A stretch of 64,000 nt of DNA from Rufibacter hautae. Its GTDB lineage: Bacteria; Bacteroidota; Bacteroidia; Cytophagales; Hymenobacteraceae. Where the stretch lies: NCBI RefSeq assembly GCF_008271695.1, contig NZ_VKKY01000002.1, positions 434,001 to 498,000 of the forward strand, given 5' to 3'. The stretch's first letter is position 1. The number at the start of each line of letters is the position of its first letter. Made by a program: the position numbers and the translations under genes. Of the stretch, positions 7,856-64,000 are shown piece after piece. The notes under the pieces are model-generated. The model saw only the letters and a list, made by a program, of their open reading frames with translations. It searched no databases and was not told where the DNA came from.

Positions 7856-8404
7856 TTGTTGGACACAACTTTACATATTACCTCTGAAGAGGACCTGGTT
7901 GCGCAATTGCGGGCGCAAGACCAACGGGCCGTTACTCTTCTCTACCGTAACTACTCGGCGGCACTGTACGGGGTTATTCTCCGGATAGTAAAGCAGGAAG
8001 AGGTAGCGGAGGACGTCTTGCAGGAAAGCTTTGTGAAGATCTGGACCGCATTCCCAACCTATGACGAGCAGAAAGGACGGCTCTTTACCTGGATGCTCAA
8101 CATTTCCCGTAATTTAGCCATTGACAAAATCCGCTCAAAGCAATATCGCGTAGGTTCAAAAACGCAGCCCATGGAAAACACCGTGACGTCGCACATGGTG
8201 AGCAGCGAGGGCATTAAGCCAGACCACATTGGGATACAGGAGATGACCCAGCAGCTGAACCCAGACCAGAAGGTGATCATAGATCTGATGTACTTCAATG
8301 GGTTCACGCAAAGTGAGGTGGCCGAAGAGCTTAATATTCCGCTGGGGACGGTAAAAACCAGGGCCCGGATGGCCATCAAGTTTTTGAGCAAATTAATCAA
8401 ATAG
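7856..8404 (+). CDS. ECF-type RNA polymerase sigma factor (SigK-like group)
   Basis: This is a 182-residue sigma factor. Region 2 lies at about residues 25-95 (LLYRNYSAALYGVILRIV, EDVLQESFVKIW, and the -10-binding FTWMLNISRNLAIDKIRS). Region 4 lies at about 130-180 with the helix-turn-helix FTQSEVAEELNIPLGTVKTR. The next gene, 2 bases downstream, encodes its likely anti-sigma factor with an RskA domain. No in-frame ATG precedes region 2, so a TTG at 7856 or 7859 must start it. In related systems such pairs answer envelope or redox stress. The stimulus is not visible here. Confidence 0.9.
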   Translation: MLDTTLHITSEEDLVAQLRAQDQRAVTLLYRNYSAALYGVILRIVKQEEVAEDVLQESFVKIWTAFPTYDEQKGRLFTWMLNISRNLAIDKIRSKQYRVGSKTQPMENTVTSHMVSSEGIKPDHIGIQEMTQQLNPDQKVIIDLMYFNGFTQSEVAEELNIPLGTVKTRARMAIKFLSKLIK

Positions 8405-53268: not shown

Positions 53269-55254
53269 ATGAGAAACAGCTACAGAACACCACCCCTTGT
53301 CTATATAGAACCCCGCTTTAGGTTTAAGCTCCTGATGCTCCTGTGGATTATAGGCGTTGGCCTTCAAAGCCAAGGAAAGGCTTGGGCCCAGGAGAAAGAC
53401 AACCTGGACACCGATAAGCAGTTGTACTTCTTCCGGATTTGGGGGCACCTCAAGTACTACCATCCGACCTCGGCCATGGGGCAGCTAAATGCCGATTCTT
53501 TGTTTCTGGCCAACCTGCCCAAGGTAGACTCGGCTAAAACAGAAAAGCAGGTGAACGCCGTATTCAAACAACTCCTGAAGGAAGTGGGTGTGCCGGCCGG
53601 CGACAAATCAAGTCCGCAGAAAGACAATCCCAAAGGCGCTTTCCTGCTCAAGAACCTGGACGATACCTGGCGCACCAAATCAAAATTCCTTTCCTCTGAT
53701 AACCGCAAAATGCTCAACCAGATCTTTGAGCGGCGCTATACCGGGGAGAAACACTACTACACCTACATCCGCAACAACCCATACGGCGGCACCATGCCCC
53801 ACGAGCCGGAATATGCCTTAGAGCCCAAGGAGAACCTGCCGTATCCGCTCCGCATGCTGGCTCTGGCCAAATTCAAGGCCTTTGTAGACTACCTGTTCCC
53901 TTACAAGCACCTCATGGACGAGAGTTGGGATGCTGTCATAGGCCAGTACCTTCCGCAGTTTGCCCAATGTGATTCCCGTGAGGAGTACGAGCGGCTGTTG
54001 TTAGGCGTGAACGCGCGCCTGGATGATACCCAGGCCTATTCATTCTTCAGGCAATTGAACCACCGCGAGAAACTCTTCAAGAACCACTACTACCCACCCT
54101 TTGACTACCAGGTGGCCGAGAAGAAGATTGTGGTCACCGCCATCATTGACGAGGCCCTCTGCAAACGCTCCAACATCCGCCGCGGCGATGTGATAGAAGG
54201 TCTGGACAGTGTTTCGGTGGCCGAGTGGGTGGGGGCGTTGGATGCGCTGCTGTCGGTGTCCAATGAATCCAGTCTGTGGGCGCGGGTAGGCGAGTGGGGC
54301 GATAACCTGCTGTTCCGCTCAGAGGATGCTACCATGAAAGTACAGCTCACCCGTGGCGAGGAACAGCTTACCACCACGCTTCGGCTGATGGATCCCTCGG
54401 TCGCTGCCAAAGCCAAACTCATTGACGCGTACTTTAAAAAGACGCAGGCAGTGCCGGCCAAGAAAAGCAAAGGCCTGGCGTACGCGGCCAAAGGCATTGT
54501 GCACTTCAAAATAGACGATACTTTCCGGCTTATCAAAGACGAGACTTCTGAGGAGGATTACCGCCTGATGGACTCCCTGTTCACCCGCGCCATGAAGGCC
54601 AAAGGCATCATTTTTGACATGCGCGGCGAGCCAGATAACAGCGATTTCGTTTTCCATTACGCCTACAAGAAATTCGGGAAGAAGAACCACTACTTCGCCC
54701 GTTATTTTCAGTTGAACCCTTACCAGGTAGGTTCTTACCGTCTGCTCACCCAGCCCGAAGTCTATTATCCTACGGACATCACGCCTAATGAGGAAGAGTA
54801 TAACGGCAAAGTGGTGATTCTGGTGAACGGTACCACCCAAAGCATTAGTGAGTGGCACACCATGAGCCTGCAACGCCTGTTCCCCAACAGCATTACCTTG
54901 GGCGAGCAAACCGCCGGCGCCGACGGCGATGTGAAGCGGATCATGTTGCCCGGCAAGTACCTGGTGGCGCTCTCTGGCAACGGCATCTATTACCCCAACA
55001 ACAACGTTACCCAACGCCTGGGGGTGCGCCTGGATGAGCAGGTGCGTCCTACCCTTATGGGCGTGCTCGGCAAAAAAGACGAGTTGCTGGCGAAAGCCAT
55101 TGAACTCATTGGCGAAGAAGAGAAATCCGCCGATCAGGAAAAGCCAACGGAAGCGAAAAAGCCAGAAATAAAGAAGGCTGAATCCAAGAAAACCGAAACC
55201 AAGAAAATAGAGGCGAAGAAAGCAGAGCCCAAGAAAAGCAAGGCTTCCTTGTAA
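53269..55254 (+). CDS. Exported S41-family (C-terminal processing) peptidase with Lys-rich tail
   Basis: This 661-residue protein has a signal-like hydrophobic segment (LLMLLWIIGVGLQSQGKAWA, about residues 20-40). A helical N-terminal region (IWGHLKYYHPTSAMGQ near 57), a PDZ-like part (IRRGDVIEGLDSVSVAEW near 305) and an S41 catalytic core (GIIFDMRGEPDN near 447, VVILVNGTTQSISEWHTMS near 520, GEQTAGADGDVKRI near 548) follow. The Ser in TTQSISEW is the likely nucleophile. The last 40 residues repeat KKxEx units (EAKKPEIKKAESKKTE), a charged tail unusual for the family. ATG 53269 is chosen because upstream codons fall in a palindrome. Confidence 0.88.
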   Translation: MRNSYRTPPLVYIEPRFRFKLLMLLWIIGVGLQSQGKAWAQEKDNLDTDKQLYFFRIWGHLKYYHPTSAMGQLNADSLFLANLPKVDSAKTEKQVNAVFKQLLKEVGVPAGDKSSPQKDNPKGAFLLKNLDDTWRTKSKFLSSDNRKMLNQIFERRYTGEKHYYTYIRNNPYGGTMPHEPEYALEPKENLPYPLRMLALAKFKAFVDYLFPYKHLMDESWDAVIGQYLPQFAQCDSREEYERLLLGVNARLDDTQAYSFFRQLNHREKLFKNHYYPPFDYQVAEKKIVVTAIIDEALCKRSNIRRGDVIEGLDSVSVAEWVGALDALLSVSNESSLWARVGEWGDNLLFRSEDATMKVQLTRGEEQLTTTLRLMDPSVAAKAKLIDAYFKKTQAVPAKKSKGLAYAAKGIVHFKIDDTFRLIKDETSEEDYRLMDSLFTRAMKAKGIIFDMRGEPDNSDFVFHYAYKKFGKKNHYFARYFQLNPYQVGSYRLLTQPEVYYPTDITPNEEEYNGKVVILVNGTTQSISEWHTMSLQRLFPNSITLGEQTAGADGDVKRIMLPGKYLVALSGNGIYYPNNNVTQRLGVRLDEQVRPTLMGVLGKKDELLAKAIELIGEEEKSADQEKPTEAKKPEIKKAESKKTETKKIEAKKAEPKKSKASL

Positions 55255-59428: not shown

Positions 59429-59807
59429 ATAAGGAATAATTAGTAGTGGAAAAAGGATGAGGGCACTTTTGAAAAATCCGGGCTTAAAATGCTTTGTGTT
59501 CAAAGTGAGGCTTAGGAAAGTTAATGTAATTATTTCAGAATAAGAAAACTTCACCCGCTAACATCAACTATCTCAATTATAGCTTAGTTGTTAAAAATGA
59601 AAGCAAATACCTATACACCAATTAATGTATAGGTATCTGCTTTTAAGTCTTGCGCTCATCATAGGCGAGCACTATTCACTTATATTGTTCTTCAAATATT
59701 AGCAAGCCTTTGAATACCTCTGATTGTAGCCTGAAGGTTACTGCTTGCGCTAGTGGAACCAATGTGATCATTATTGGTCCCATGTTTAAAGCCAAAGGAG
59801 GTAATTA
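59429..59807. other. Intergenic region between DUF4180 and S9 peptidase genes
   Basis: About 380 bases holding one strong hairpin (59600-59643). No gene is seen. Confidence 0.5.
59600..59645. terminator. Hairpin terminator between convergent genes
   Basis: Arms AAAGCAAATACCTATAC (59600-59616) and GTATAGGTATCTGCTTT (59627-59643) pair at 16 of 17 positions. A-rich and T-rich ends would suit both directions. Confidence 0.75.
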
Positions 59808-61901
59808 CTATTCTACTGGTAAGGCTGGTTCTTTTTCTCCAAATAGGTAGTGGTTAAACCATTGCCAGTTGTGCCAGGTAGCCGCTAAACGCTCTTTTGG
59901 TTTATTGATGCCGTGCCCGAAGCCTTTGTAGACAATCAGTCTGGAAGGAATACCCCGGTCCTGTAAACCACGGTAGAGCTCATAAGCGTTTGGAATGGGC
60001 ACCCTTTTGTCAAATTCGCCGTGCTGGATCAAGGTAGGGGTGCTGGCTTTGTTAATGTTGGTCATGGGAGAAGTCTTGAGGTAAATATCCATATCGCTCC
60101 AGGGGGTGGCTTGCAGGTATTGGCGGGTAAACGGCGTGATGTCGGTGTTGACGTAATAGGTGATCCAGTTGGAGATACCGGCGCCTACCGAGATGGCTTT
60201 GAACCGGTTGGTGTTGGTGGTGAGAAACGCTGAGATATAACCACCCTGGCTCCAGCCCATGGAACCCATGCGCGTAGTGTCAATCATTCCTTTCTTATCC
60301 AGGTAGTCTACGCCGCTCATCACATCCCACATATCGCCCACGCCCAGGTTGCGTACGTTAAGCGACCGAAACTTCTCGCCATAGCCAGCGCTGCCCCGGT
60401 AATTCACCCGCAACACCAGGGCGCCTTTCTCCACCCATTGCAGCATGGGGTACACGTAAGAAGGGGTAGGATCTGGCAGGTCAATGCCCGTTGGGCCCCC
60501 ATGAATGACAATGAGCAAGGGGTATTTCTTGTTGGCGTCATAGTTGCGCGGTTTCAGCAGCACGCCGTCAATAGAAGCGCCATCGGTACTTTGCCAGGTA
60601 ATGACCTCGTTCAGGGGCGTGTTCCAGCCCTTGATCTGCCCGGTGTTGTTCGTGAGTTTTTTCAGGGGCTTGTTCAACTTGCCGGTGTAGATTTCCCCCA
60701 GGTCGGCGTGGTTCCTGCCGCTTACCGCCACCAGATCGGTGTTTTTGCTGAAGGCCACATAGTTGACCAGATCCAGCGCCAGCGGTAAGGCTTTGCTTTT
60801 ACCGGTTTTAGGGTTTACCTCAAATACCTTCTGCCTTGTTTTTTCCAAAGCATTGACGTAAATGCCGTTCTTATTCCACTCCATCACAGATTTGTTTTCA
60901 TCAATGGCTTGCGCTACCTCCTGGCTTTTGCCGGTTGGGGTGTCATAGATGAACAGGCGGTTGTTCTTGAAGAAATAAGTGGTGGAATCATCCAGGGAAC
61001 TGCTGTACACAAAAGCCTTTCCGTCTGGGCTCCACTTACTGAAAAAATCTCCGGTAGGGTTGGAGATTAGGGTTTTGACTTCTTTGGTGTCTGCGTTGAC
61101 GAGAGCAATGTCTGACCGCAGGCTACTGGTGATTAGCGGATTGGGTTGCTTGTTGAAAGCGATGGTTCTGCCGTCTGGGTTCCAGGCAAAGCTGGTGACG
61201 TGGAAATCACCGGAGGTAATCTTGCGGGCTACGGGCAGTTTATAGCAATCTTGTGAAGGAACAACCGATGTGGTGCTTGCCTGGAGCGAGTCTTTCTTAA
61301 CAGGGTAGCAGGGCACTTGCCCGGCCAGGGCCACGGAGTCATAGTGGAAGTTGAGTAACCAGAGATGGCTTTGCTTAAATTCTTCGCCTTCAATGGCGAA
61401 GGCTCCGTAGCGCTCCTTCGTAGTTTTCTCCTTTTTGCTTTCTACCTCGGCTTTGGTATAGGCTAGCCGGTTACCAGTAGGGCTCCATTCATAACTTCCC
61501 ACGCCATCCTCGTCTTTGGTGACCTGCAGCGCCTCCCCACCGGTGACCGGAATGATGTACAGCTGATTTTTCTCACCCCGGTCGGTTAGAAAGCTCACGA
61601 ACTTGCTGTCTGGGGTAATGCGTGCCGAGGTGCTGCTGCCTTTGGCGGTGCGGGTAAGGGGCAGGGGAGCGGCGCCGTCCCTTGACAGCCAAAGCTCCGT
61701 ATCATAGGTATTATTCGTCCAATCGGTGCTGGTGACACTGTACACCACGGTTTTCCCATCAGGCGAAATAAGGGGAGCACCTACTTGCTTCAGGCTGATG
61801 ACTTTTTCAAAGGAGATGGAAGCGCCCTGCTGGGCCCAAACGCTTCCTGTACAACCCAGGAAAAGGAGAAAAAGTAACCCTATTTTCATAACTATAGTCA
61901 T
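59808..61901 (-). CDS. Exported S9-family (prolyl oligopeptidase-type) peptidase
   Basis: This 697-residue serine peptidase has a signal peptide (IGLLFLLFLGCTGSVWAQ). A beta-propeller covers about residues 30-410 (PD40-like ISPDGKTVVYSVTS near 45, WSPDGKAFVYSSS near 290) and an alpha/beta-hydrolase domain about 425-690. The nucleophile Ser is in GSMGWSQGGYISAF near 545, the Asp in HGEFDKRVP near 635 and the His in KGFGHGINKP near 665. It likely trims proline-containing peptides in the periplasm. A Met codon at 61889 is an alternative start. The signal-peptide region has a decayed second copy at 63723-63837. Confidence 0.93.
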   Translation of the reverse strand: MTIVMKIGLLFLLFLGCTGSVWAQQGASISFEKVISLKQVGAPLISPDGKTVVYSVTSTDWTNNTYDTELWLSRDGAAPLPLTRTAKGSSTSARITPDSKFVSFLTDRGEKNQLYIIPVTGGEALQVTKDEDGVGSYEWSPTGNRLAYTKAEVESKKEKTTKERYGAFAIEGEEFKQSHLWLLNFHYDSVALAGQVPCYPVKKDSLQASTTSVVPSQDCYKLPVARKITSGDFHVTSFAWNPDGRTIAFNKQPNPLITSSLRSDIALVNADTKEVKTLISNPTGDFFSKWSPDGKAFVYSSSLDDSTTYFFKNNRLFIYDTPTGKSQEVAQAIDENKSVMEWNKNGIYVNALEKTRQKVFEVNPKTGKSKALPLALDLVNYVAFSKNTDLVAVSGRNHADLGEIYTGKLNKPLKKLTNNTGQIKGWNTPLNEVITWQSTDGASIDGVLLKPRNYDANKKYPLLIVIHGGPTGIDLPDPTPSYVYPMLQWVEKGALVLRVNYRGSAGYGEKFRSLNVRNLGVGDMWDVMSGVDYLDKKGMIDTTRMGSMGWSQGGYISAFLTTNTNRFKAISVGAGISNWITYYVNTDITPFTRQYLQATPWSDMDIYLKTSPMTNINKASTPTLIQHGEFDKRVPIPNAYELYRGLQDRGIPSRLIVYKGFGHGINKPKERLAATWHNWQWFNHYLFGEKEPALPVE

Positions 61902-62205
61902 TGATTGTATACACCTTCCGGAATAACTCTAAATAGTTAGAGCTGAATAAATTAAACACTTTTATTGCATATAGGCCAGTGACTGAAAATATTAATATAT
62001 CTGGTACTTTACCAGCCTCGTACTAAAACTCTAAAGATATAGGCTTACTTGCAGCCATACAGTGGAACGTGGGCGCCGGTAGCCAGAAAGAGTACTTAGG
62101 AAATACGGAATGCTCCTCACCAGCGAGGAGTAAATAAAATCAGGTTTCAGACTGTTCCGGCACACGTTAATTTTTACCACTTAACGGCTCATCTTCATAG
62201 GAACT
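61902..62205. other. Shared upstream region of the S9 and CBM-nucleoside-hydrolase genes
   Basis: About 300 bases. Its left 100 bases (to about 62,003) match 63838-63958 with small gaps, so this part is duplicated. No clear -33/-7 pair was found. Confidence 0.55.
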
Positions 62206-63687
62206 ATGGCAAAACTCAGGGCACTTCTTTCGTTGAGCATCTTGGCGCTTGATATTGATCCATTCACCGCTGTGGGGCAGCAGAGGCCTTATTTAGGGGC
62301 ACCACTTGAGCTTCCAACCCGCGTGGAAGGCGAGAACTTCGACCGCGGCGGCATGAATGTCGCCTACTACGATACAACCCCAAAAAACCGCGACCAAGCT
62401 TATCGCACGGGCGAGGACGTGGACATAGCCCGAAACGTCCACACCACGGGCCATCACATCAGTGCCATCCGGAAAGGCGAGTGGCTGGAATACACGGTCA
62501 ATGTCGCGGCGGCCGGTGAGTATGATTTCACGGCATCCGTAGCAACCACCGGTTCCGGCAAGAGCTTCCAGATGCTCATTGACGGTGTCAACCGGATGGG
62601 GAATATCAAGGTTCCCAACCGGGGAAGCTACCAAAGCTACTCTCTCACCGCCGTCAAGCGCGTGAAACTTAGCGCAGGTCGGCATCTGCTGCGGTTCCAG
62701 ACGAAGTCTCAATATTTTGATGTAGATTACTTCGAATTCAAAAAAGTAAGCAAAGATCCTCCTCCTCCTGCTCAGACGCCATCTACGAGCAAAGTGAACC
62801 TGATCCTGGACTTGGATATCTTCAACGACTCAGACGATGCGGGGGCTCTGGCCGTTTTGCACAGCCTGATTCGGTCCGGCGAGGTCAATGTGCTGGCCAT
62901 GATGGTTACGGTGTCTTACCCGTACAGCGCCCCGGCCACTGATGCAATCAATACGTATTTCGGACTCCCGAATATCCCCATCGGGATTCTGAGGGATAAT
63001 ACCCTTCTCCCCACCGGCGGCTGGTACAGTCAAATTTCCGCCAATTACCCCCAAGATCTCGTCAACGCGCCCAATGCCACGACCCTCTATGAGCAAATCT
63101 TATCCCGACAGCCGGATAATAGTGTCGTGATCGCAACCATCGGTCCGCTCCGCAACCTTGATAACCTGATGGCTTCCTCCGAAGGCATGGATCTGATCCG
63201 ACGGAAAGTGAAGAGGCTGGTCGCCGCAGGGGGGTGGATAGACGAAGACGGCTCTTCCGGAACTTCCTTTAACTACAAACTGGCGGCCTCCAGCACCCAA
63301 CGGGTCATCAACCATTGGCCGGGGGAGGCTTGGTTTGTGCCCAACCAAGTGGGGGATAAGATCAAGACAGGAAATCGCCTCCTGGCCACCAAATCCAACG
63401 CCAATCCTGTGCGCAAGGCCTATGAAATTGCTAAGAACCGTTACCATGGCCCCGATTTCCGGCCGAGCTGGGACCAAATGGGCGTGCTGATTGCCGTGCG
63501 GGGCCTATGGGGCGGGAGGTTTACGTCCGAGACCAACGGACAGCTGAGATCCGACCCGGGCGGGAACGTCTCCTGGAAATATCCTTCCTTCCACCACCCA
63601 GACAAAAACCACCACTGGATCAAGCTCAACACTAGCCCGTCAAAGATGAGCGTCATCGTTGAGAATATGATGATGCTTGATCCGTGA
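62206..63687 (+). CDS. Carbohydrate-binding module fused to a nucleoside-hydrolase-like domain
   Basis: This 493-residue protein has a weak hydrophobic N-terminus (LSLSILALDIDPF), a CBM6/35-like beta-sandwich at about residues 38-183 (RVEGENFDRGG, AIRKGEWLEYTVNVAAAGEYDF, HLLRFQTKSQYFDVDYFEF), a Pro-rich linker (DPPPPAQTPSTS) and a nucleoside-hydrolase-like domain at about 198-493. The calcium/ribose site LDLDIFNDSDDAGAL near 204 matches the DxDxxxDD pattern, and ATIGPLRNLDNLM near 310 and RPSWDQMGVLIAVRG near 424 fit the family. It may act on a ribose- or sugar-linked surface polymer. It is bracketed by a duplicated S9 segment, so it looks inserted. Confidence 0.82.
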   Translation: MAKLRALLSLSILALDIDPFTAVGQQRPYLGAPLELPTRVEGENFDRGGMNVAYYDTTPKNRDQAYRTGEDVDIARNVHTTGHHISAIRKGEWLEYTVNVAAAGEYDFTASVATTGSGKSFQMLIDGVNRMGNIKVPNRGSYQSYSLTAVKRVKLSAGRHLLRFQTKSQYFDVDYFEFKKVSKDPPPPAQTPSTSKVNLILDLDIFNDSDDAGALAVLHSLIRSGEVNVLAMMVTVSYPYSAPATDAINTYFGLPNIPIGILRDNTLLPTGGWYSQISANYPQDLVNAPNATTLYEQILSRQPDNSVVIATIGPLRNLDNLMASSEGMDLIRRKVKRLVAAGGWIDEDGSSGTSFNYKLAASSTQRVINHWPGEAWFVPNQVGDKIKTGNRLLATKSNANPVRKAYEIAKNRYHGPDFRPSWDQMGVLIAVRGLWGGRFTSETNGQLRSDPGGNVSWKYPSFHHPDKNHHWIKLNTSPSKMSVIVENMMMLDP

Positions 63688-63722
63688 GGTGGAGAACTAG
63701 GATTTTGAAAGTGAAACTAGGC

Positions 63723-63837
63723 TGCTTCAGGCTGATGACATTCTATCGGGAGAGCAAGGAGCCTGTTAAACCCAAATGCTTCCTGTACAACCCAGGATAA
63801 GTAGGAAACCCGAACCGATTCTCCTAAAACCAGCCAT
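63723..63837 (-). pseudogene. Decayed copy of the S9-peptidase signal-peptide region
   Basis: On the minus strand from the ATG at 63837 the frame reads a signal-like segment FLLILGCTGSIWV and then stops at TAA (63766-63768). The intact gene reads LFLLFLGCTGSVWAQ. DNA similarity runs on past the stop to CAGCCTGAAGCAG and then ends. The flanking 63838-63958 also matches the intact gene's upstream region. It is the truncated start of a second S9-type gene. Confidence 0.75.
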
Positions 63838-64000
63838 TAGATATAGACACCTTCCAGATTGGCTCTAAATACCAGATTGGCTCTAAATAGTTATAGCTGA
63901 ATTAATTAAATACTTTACTTGCATACAGACTAGTATCTGGTAAATTTAATATATCTGGGTAGGCGTAGTCATCTGGCTTCCACCATGGCCTCTTATCCGT
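63838..64000. other. Duplicated upstream region and window end
   Basis: 63838-63958 is a diverged copy of the S9 gene's upstream region and contains an 18-base tandem repeat (CCAGATTGGCTCTAAATA, 63854-63889). An ATG at 63985 is too near the edge to judge. Confidence 0.5.

Follow-up and report, generated by a model that had tools for sequence, protein, structure and literature searches.

The question raised by this locus is how the start of one gene came to be repeated on the far side of another, apparently unrelated one. Near the right-hand end of the stretch of Rufibacter hautae DNA analysed here (the window, 64,000 nucleotides; C2:434001-498000 in genome G000), the beginning of a gene for an S9 (prolyl oligopeptidase family) peptidase recurs in diverged form beyond NH, a gene for a protein with a CBM6 module and a nucleoside-hydrolase-like domain. 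We propose, with a probability of roughly 80%, that the locus is the scar of a horizontal acquisition of NH, which had been joined once to a 5' fragment of a bPH_1 gene. A search of the literature found no account of this locus, nor of proteins in which a CBM is fused to a nucleoside hydrolase, and within the literature searched the locus appears to be undescribed.

A duplicated S9/bPH junction

The S9 gene is intact (697 aa; 59808-61901, minus strand; PF00326, E 1.2e-47), and its signal-peptide region together with the intergenic sequence upstream forms the first repeat copy (61786-62004, minus strand). S9', the second copy, comprises a dead 5' S9 fragment with its upstream region and lies at 63723-63958, again on the minus strand. 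In an ungapped repeat search the two are in-register direct repeats, composed of blocks of 31 nt (81% identity), 110 nt (73%) and 102 nt (75%), and their gapped local alignment scored 139 against a best of 29 among 1000 dinucleotide shuffles, which bears out the claim of a first-pass annotation that about 200 bases of the S9 start and upstream region recur, diverged and in the same orientation. The same annotation gave the second copy an early stop after about 35 codons; the fragment is indeed dead, but the frame from the ATG at 63837 (63766-63837, minus strand) stops after 23 codons, and similarity to S9 reaches approximately codon 39 in R. hautae.

As had also been noted, the CBM-nucleoside-hydrolase gene lies between the copies (NH ORF, 62206-63687, plus strand), and it is followed by the remains of its downstream terminator (63688-63728, plus strand), recognized by alignment of downstream regions. 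The second copy does not belong to an intact gene outside the window, the outcome that the annotation had said would refute its reading, since the next gene is an unrelated bPH_1 on the plus strand (126 aa; C2:498021-498401, L007:10022-10402), whose upstream region begins in the last bases of the window (63959-64000, plus strand) and whose ORF starts 21 bases beyond the last position of the window. What had been missed is a second duplicated piece, PH' (62039-62200, plus strand), a decayed fragment that covers the 5'-most ~163 nt of a bPH_1 gene, foreign as judged by alignment and the approximately unbiased (AU) test. The order at the locus is S9 (minus), PH' and NH (plus), S9' (minus) and bPH (plus). 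The entire S9/bPH junction, and not S9 alone, is therefore duplicated around NH, which is bracketed by direct copies of its target region, the S9 start with S9' on the one hand and PH' with bPH on the other.

Some later remodelling of these flanks may also be discerned. The NH terminator hairpin is complete in R. latericius R-22-1 (G003), in Sabulibacter ruber SYSU D00434 (G011) and in a plasmid-like copy from R. latericius (G003b); in R. hautae its right arm is missing and the junction to S9' falls at a shared TGCTTC, which suggests that a later microhomology deletion at TGCTTC removed the right arm and part of S9'. Across the S9 start and the region upstream of it (61811-62000) R. hautae and its closest relative, G014, share 62% identity, compared with about 86% in the body of S9, and exchange between the two repeat copies may explain the low identity at the S9 start and in the left intergenic region. 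At the other end of the S9 gene, between it and the convergent DUF4180 gene, an 18-nt inverted repeat (94%, 8-nt loop; 59600-59643) is possibly a bidirectional terminator.

The bPH fragment ahead of NH

PH' was detected through a bPH protein search, which gave short matches directly 5' of NH in R. hautae and in the other NH-bearing relatives. Aligned with the resident bPH the segment 62039-62200 scored 217, and aligned with the bPH of S. ruber it scored 379, the shuffle maximum being 115 in both cases. In all five copies PH' breaks off at about nucleotide 163 of bPH, 6 nt 5' of the NH ATG. The R. hautae fragment has lost its start codon and contains in-frame stops; start codons are missing in three of the five copies and frames are broken in most, so that translation of PH' is unlikely in most copies. 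We also considered that PH' and NH might be fused in frame into one protein, and discarded the idea given the absence of a start codon from most copies and the shifted frames.

In a tree built from these ~163 decayed sites, the five PH' sequences form one group (support 92/97) beside the bPH of S. ruber (79/89). AU tests on the same short and decayed alignment rejected trees in which PH' stands beside the resident gene (p 0.00012 for R. hautae, 0.00002 for R. latericius), as well as the one that unites every fragment with the bPH genes of the three Rufibacter genomes (p 0.0067). Identity of PH' to the S. ruber bPH is 69-83%, or 70-83% when taken over the chromosomal fragments, and to the resident bPH it is 57-67% (R. 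hautae, R. latericius and G014); the PH' of S. ruber itself, at 78%, is thus no closer to the S. ruber bPH than is the PH' of G014 (83%). The source of PH' is therefore a Sabulibacter-like bPH and not the resident gene, and since the fragment is phylogenetically foreign, it came with NH and not through a local duplication.

The last 55 nt of PH', those nearest NH, are the best conserved among the fragments (88%, against 70-74% elsewhere in PH'), and in the intact bPH genes the same stretch, at 81%, falls below that value. This conservation is compatible with a leader role for these 55 nt, and NH may be expressed from the bPH-derived leader.

NH and its relatives

The NH protein (493 aa) carries a CBM6 domain (PF03422) at 75.5 bits, above the curated cut-off of 28.9, and a hydrophobic N-terminal segment that looks like a signal peptide. 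It shares with IU-type nucleoside hydrolases a DLDIFNDSDD motif, resembling the nucleoside-hydrolase aspartate motif, and a weak match to PF01156 (24.0 bits); it differs from them in that this match stays below the curated Pfam cut-off of 34.2 and in that, in the searches made, its close full-length relatives are found only within the Rufibacter/Sabulibacter genus group. No NCBIfam model corresponds to NH, a PDB sequence search gave matches confined to the CBM6 parts of proteins, and a search of a plasmid collection returned no relative spanning 80% of the query. As to function, NH might reasonably be guessed to be a secreted hydrolase that acts on ribosides in the vicinity of polysaccharides. 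Values of dN/dS of 0.09-0.21 indicate purifying selection, and therefore that the protein is maintained.

Of 16 genus members searched, four have full-length NH: R. hautae, R. latericius, G014 and S. ruber. R. latericius and G014 have the same order as R. hautae (S9, PH'-NH, S9', bPH), and in both of them S9' extends to about codon 124-132, which would represent a common original endpoint. S. ruber lacks S9 and has an acetylesterase-like gene, then PH'-NH, then bPH; the acetylesterase-like gene (644 aa, L049:4004-5938, reversed strand; named by eye) takes the place of S9 to the left of PH', and a 38-nt terminator-like stretch is present on each side of NH in this genome. All four chromosomal NH copies thus lie directly upstream of bPH, with either of two left neighbours, S9 or the acetylesterase-like gene. 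In G002, the sister of S. ruber, bPH is present and the acetylesterase-like gene, PH', NH and S9 are all absent from the site. The first-pass annotation had proposed looking among related genomes for the site without NH. G008 has S9 beside bPH and no NH, but an extra 129-aa ORF separates the two, for which reason it was set aside as an empty site. No clean empty site (S9-intergenic-bPH) was found among the relatives examined.

The divergence of NH is low relative to that of the genes around it. NH dS is 0.49-0.60 whichever two of the four chromosomal copies are compared, against neighbour-gene values of 0.92-2.3 in pairs with S. ruber and of 0.71-1.6 for R. latericius against R. hautae or G014. 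The combination that would mark horizontal acquisition, divergence below that of the neighbours together with patchy presence, is accordingly seen in pairs with R. latericius or S. ruber and not between R. hautae and G014, the closest pair, where NH is as diverged as its neighbours; this pair may therefore have inherited NH together, and vertical inheritance since its arrival is possible there. Because PH' is foreign and NH dS is clearly below that of the neighbours between the more distant carriers, we conclude that NH entered from outside by horizontal transfer, already linked to PH' in one foreign unit.

A second NH, the plasmid-like copy G003b, is present in R. latericius on a contig of 166,891 bp (G003:C4). 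This copy is 94-95% identical to the NH of the window, with a dS of 0.27, the nearest being to R. hautae, and it is preceded by PH' and just ~15 codons of the S9 start, in the arrangement S9 start-intergenic-PH'-NH. The contig encodes a Rep_3 initiator, a relaxase and resolvases and is therefore most likely a plasmid, a status that for this draft contig is judged by gene content only; NH thereby also has a copy on what is probably a mobile replicon. A serine resolvase gene (L043:6550-7332) lies ~1.3 kb 5' of the S9 start, and palindromes occur at L043:8136-8189 and 8316-8378. The contig also encodes a SIR2+STALD protein between two ORFs that are TIR-like by eye (L043:3332-5890), a set that resembles the Thoeris anti-phage system.

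Proposed history and its alternatives

We suggest the following history. In a Sabulibacter-like relative, a single event would have placed NH after the initial ~163 nt of a bPH_1 gene, and the resulting PH'-NH unit would have moved among Rufibacter and Sabulibacter species, probably on plasmids. A donor carrying S9 start-intergenic-PH'-NH would then have recombined with a resident S9-bPH junction, by a single crossover or by insertion-duplication, to yield S9-PH'-NH-S9'-bPH. S9' and PH' would have decayed after integration, and in R. hautae a short-repeat deletion would have shortened S9' and removed half of the terminator of NH. That plasmids were the vehicle, and that integration proceeded by homologous recombination, we infer from the comparisons above. 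No donor with the exact order NH downstream-S9'-intergenic-PH' was found among the copies examined; S9' is of Rufibacter type, and a tree that combined S9 sequences with the S9' remnants did not separate a resident from a donor origin. The lack of S9 in S. ruber is compatible with more than one order of events between the lineages.

Several other readings have to be weighed against this history. The first-pass annotation considered that a tandem S9 duplication had been interrupted, which fails in that form, the duplicated block being the S9/bPH junction and PH' being foreign (AU p 0.00012 in R. hautae). A wider version supposes a local duplication of the S9/bPH junction in an ancestral Rufibacter, with NH subsequently entering the joint or taking its place; it would account for the geometry of the arrangement with its insert at the joint and for the S9' endpoints at codon 124-132 common to R. 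latericius and G014. Against it, PH' falls beside the Sabulibacter bPH in the trees, away from the resident gene (AU p 0.0067 to 0.00002), and an identical PH'/NH join is found in Sabulibacter, where S9 is absent, and on the plasmid-like contig; for the bPH part the trees reject such a duplication, and as a whole we regard it as very improbable. We give still less credence to the movement of NH by a transposon, an integron or a resolvase-borne cassette: the serine resolvase and palindromes near the plasmid-like copy would speak for it, but at both ends the unit consists of host-gene fragments, and the chromosomal copies have neither an adjacent recombinase gene nor shared terminal repeats.

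A far more credible alternative, though one that we rate at somewhat below even odds, is that S9-PH'-NH-S9'-bPH originated a single time as a complete allele, which Rufibacter species then exchanged through ordinary homologous recombination in its flanks, in place of repeated integrations. The common S9' endpoint in R. latericius and G014 would fit such a spread, as would an NH dS below that of the flanks; on the other side, sliding windows between these two genomes show no raised identity in the S9 flank beside NH, and the left neighbour differs in S. ruber. Allele exchange is in any case compatible with the acquisition of NH as a PH'-NH unit proposed here, as it touches only the later steps. 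The annotation's second suggestion, that the gene arrived with recombination between the copies, was vague in its wording; it comes near the mark insofar as NH did come from outside and its flanks resemble a recombination product.

Direct chromosomal repeats are known to arise through recombination with incoming DNA, as described in pneumococcus (PMC3784515, Johnston et al. 2013). The locus is like the merodiploid formation, or insertion-duplication, of that system in having a directly repeated stretch with other sequence at the joint; it differs in that the Rufibacter event would be old, its repeats are short and decayed, its donor is probably plasmid-borne, and it is known from sequence alone.

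Insertion hotspots occur beside conserved genes. The interval from the S41 peptidase gene to bPH (window position 55254 to C2:498021) varies across the genus from ~0.15 to 8.8 kb, and its content varies with it; it is an insertion hotspot whose end is the start of bPH. The NH locus resembles other hotspots in this, that the content differs by genome and ends at the bPH start; unlike them, its NH cargo bears a truncated copy of the flanking gene, an outcome not expected of plain exchange through full-length flanks.

The kind of event proposed here is an ordinary and known one; its footprint is unusually readable. The locus offers a clear natural example of a gene linked to the beginning of another, of its spread between species and of duplicated flanks in decay, in which the foreign origin of a 163-nt relic reveals the outside source of the unit. 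The position of the four chromosomal copies, each directly upstream of bPH and next to one or the other of two left neighbours, together with the conservation of the last 55 nt of PH', leads us to speculate, as an unlikely extension, that PH'-NH is a homology-guided mobile unit in which the bPH start serves as both leader and homology arm, and which plasmids deliver repeatedly to one site in different species without an integrase. Should the unit indeed be delivered again and again to one site by means of the homology arm that it carries, this would represent a simple, site-preferring form of gene mobility that needs no integrase.
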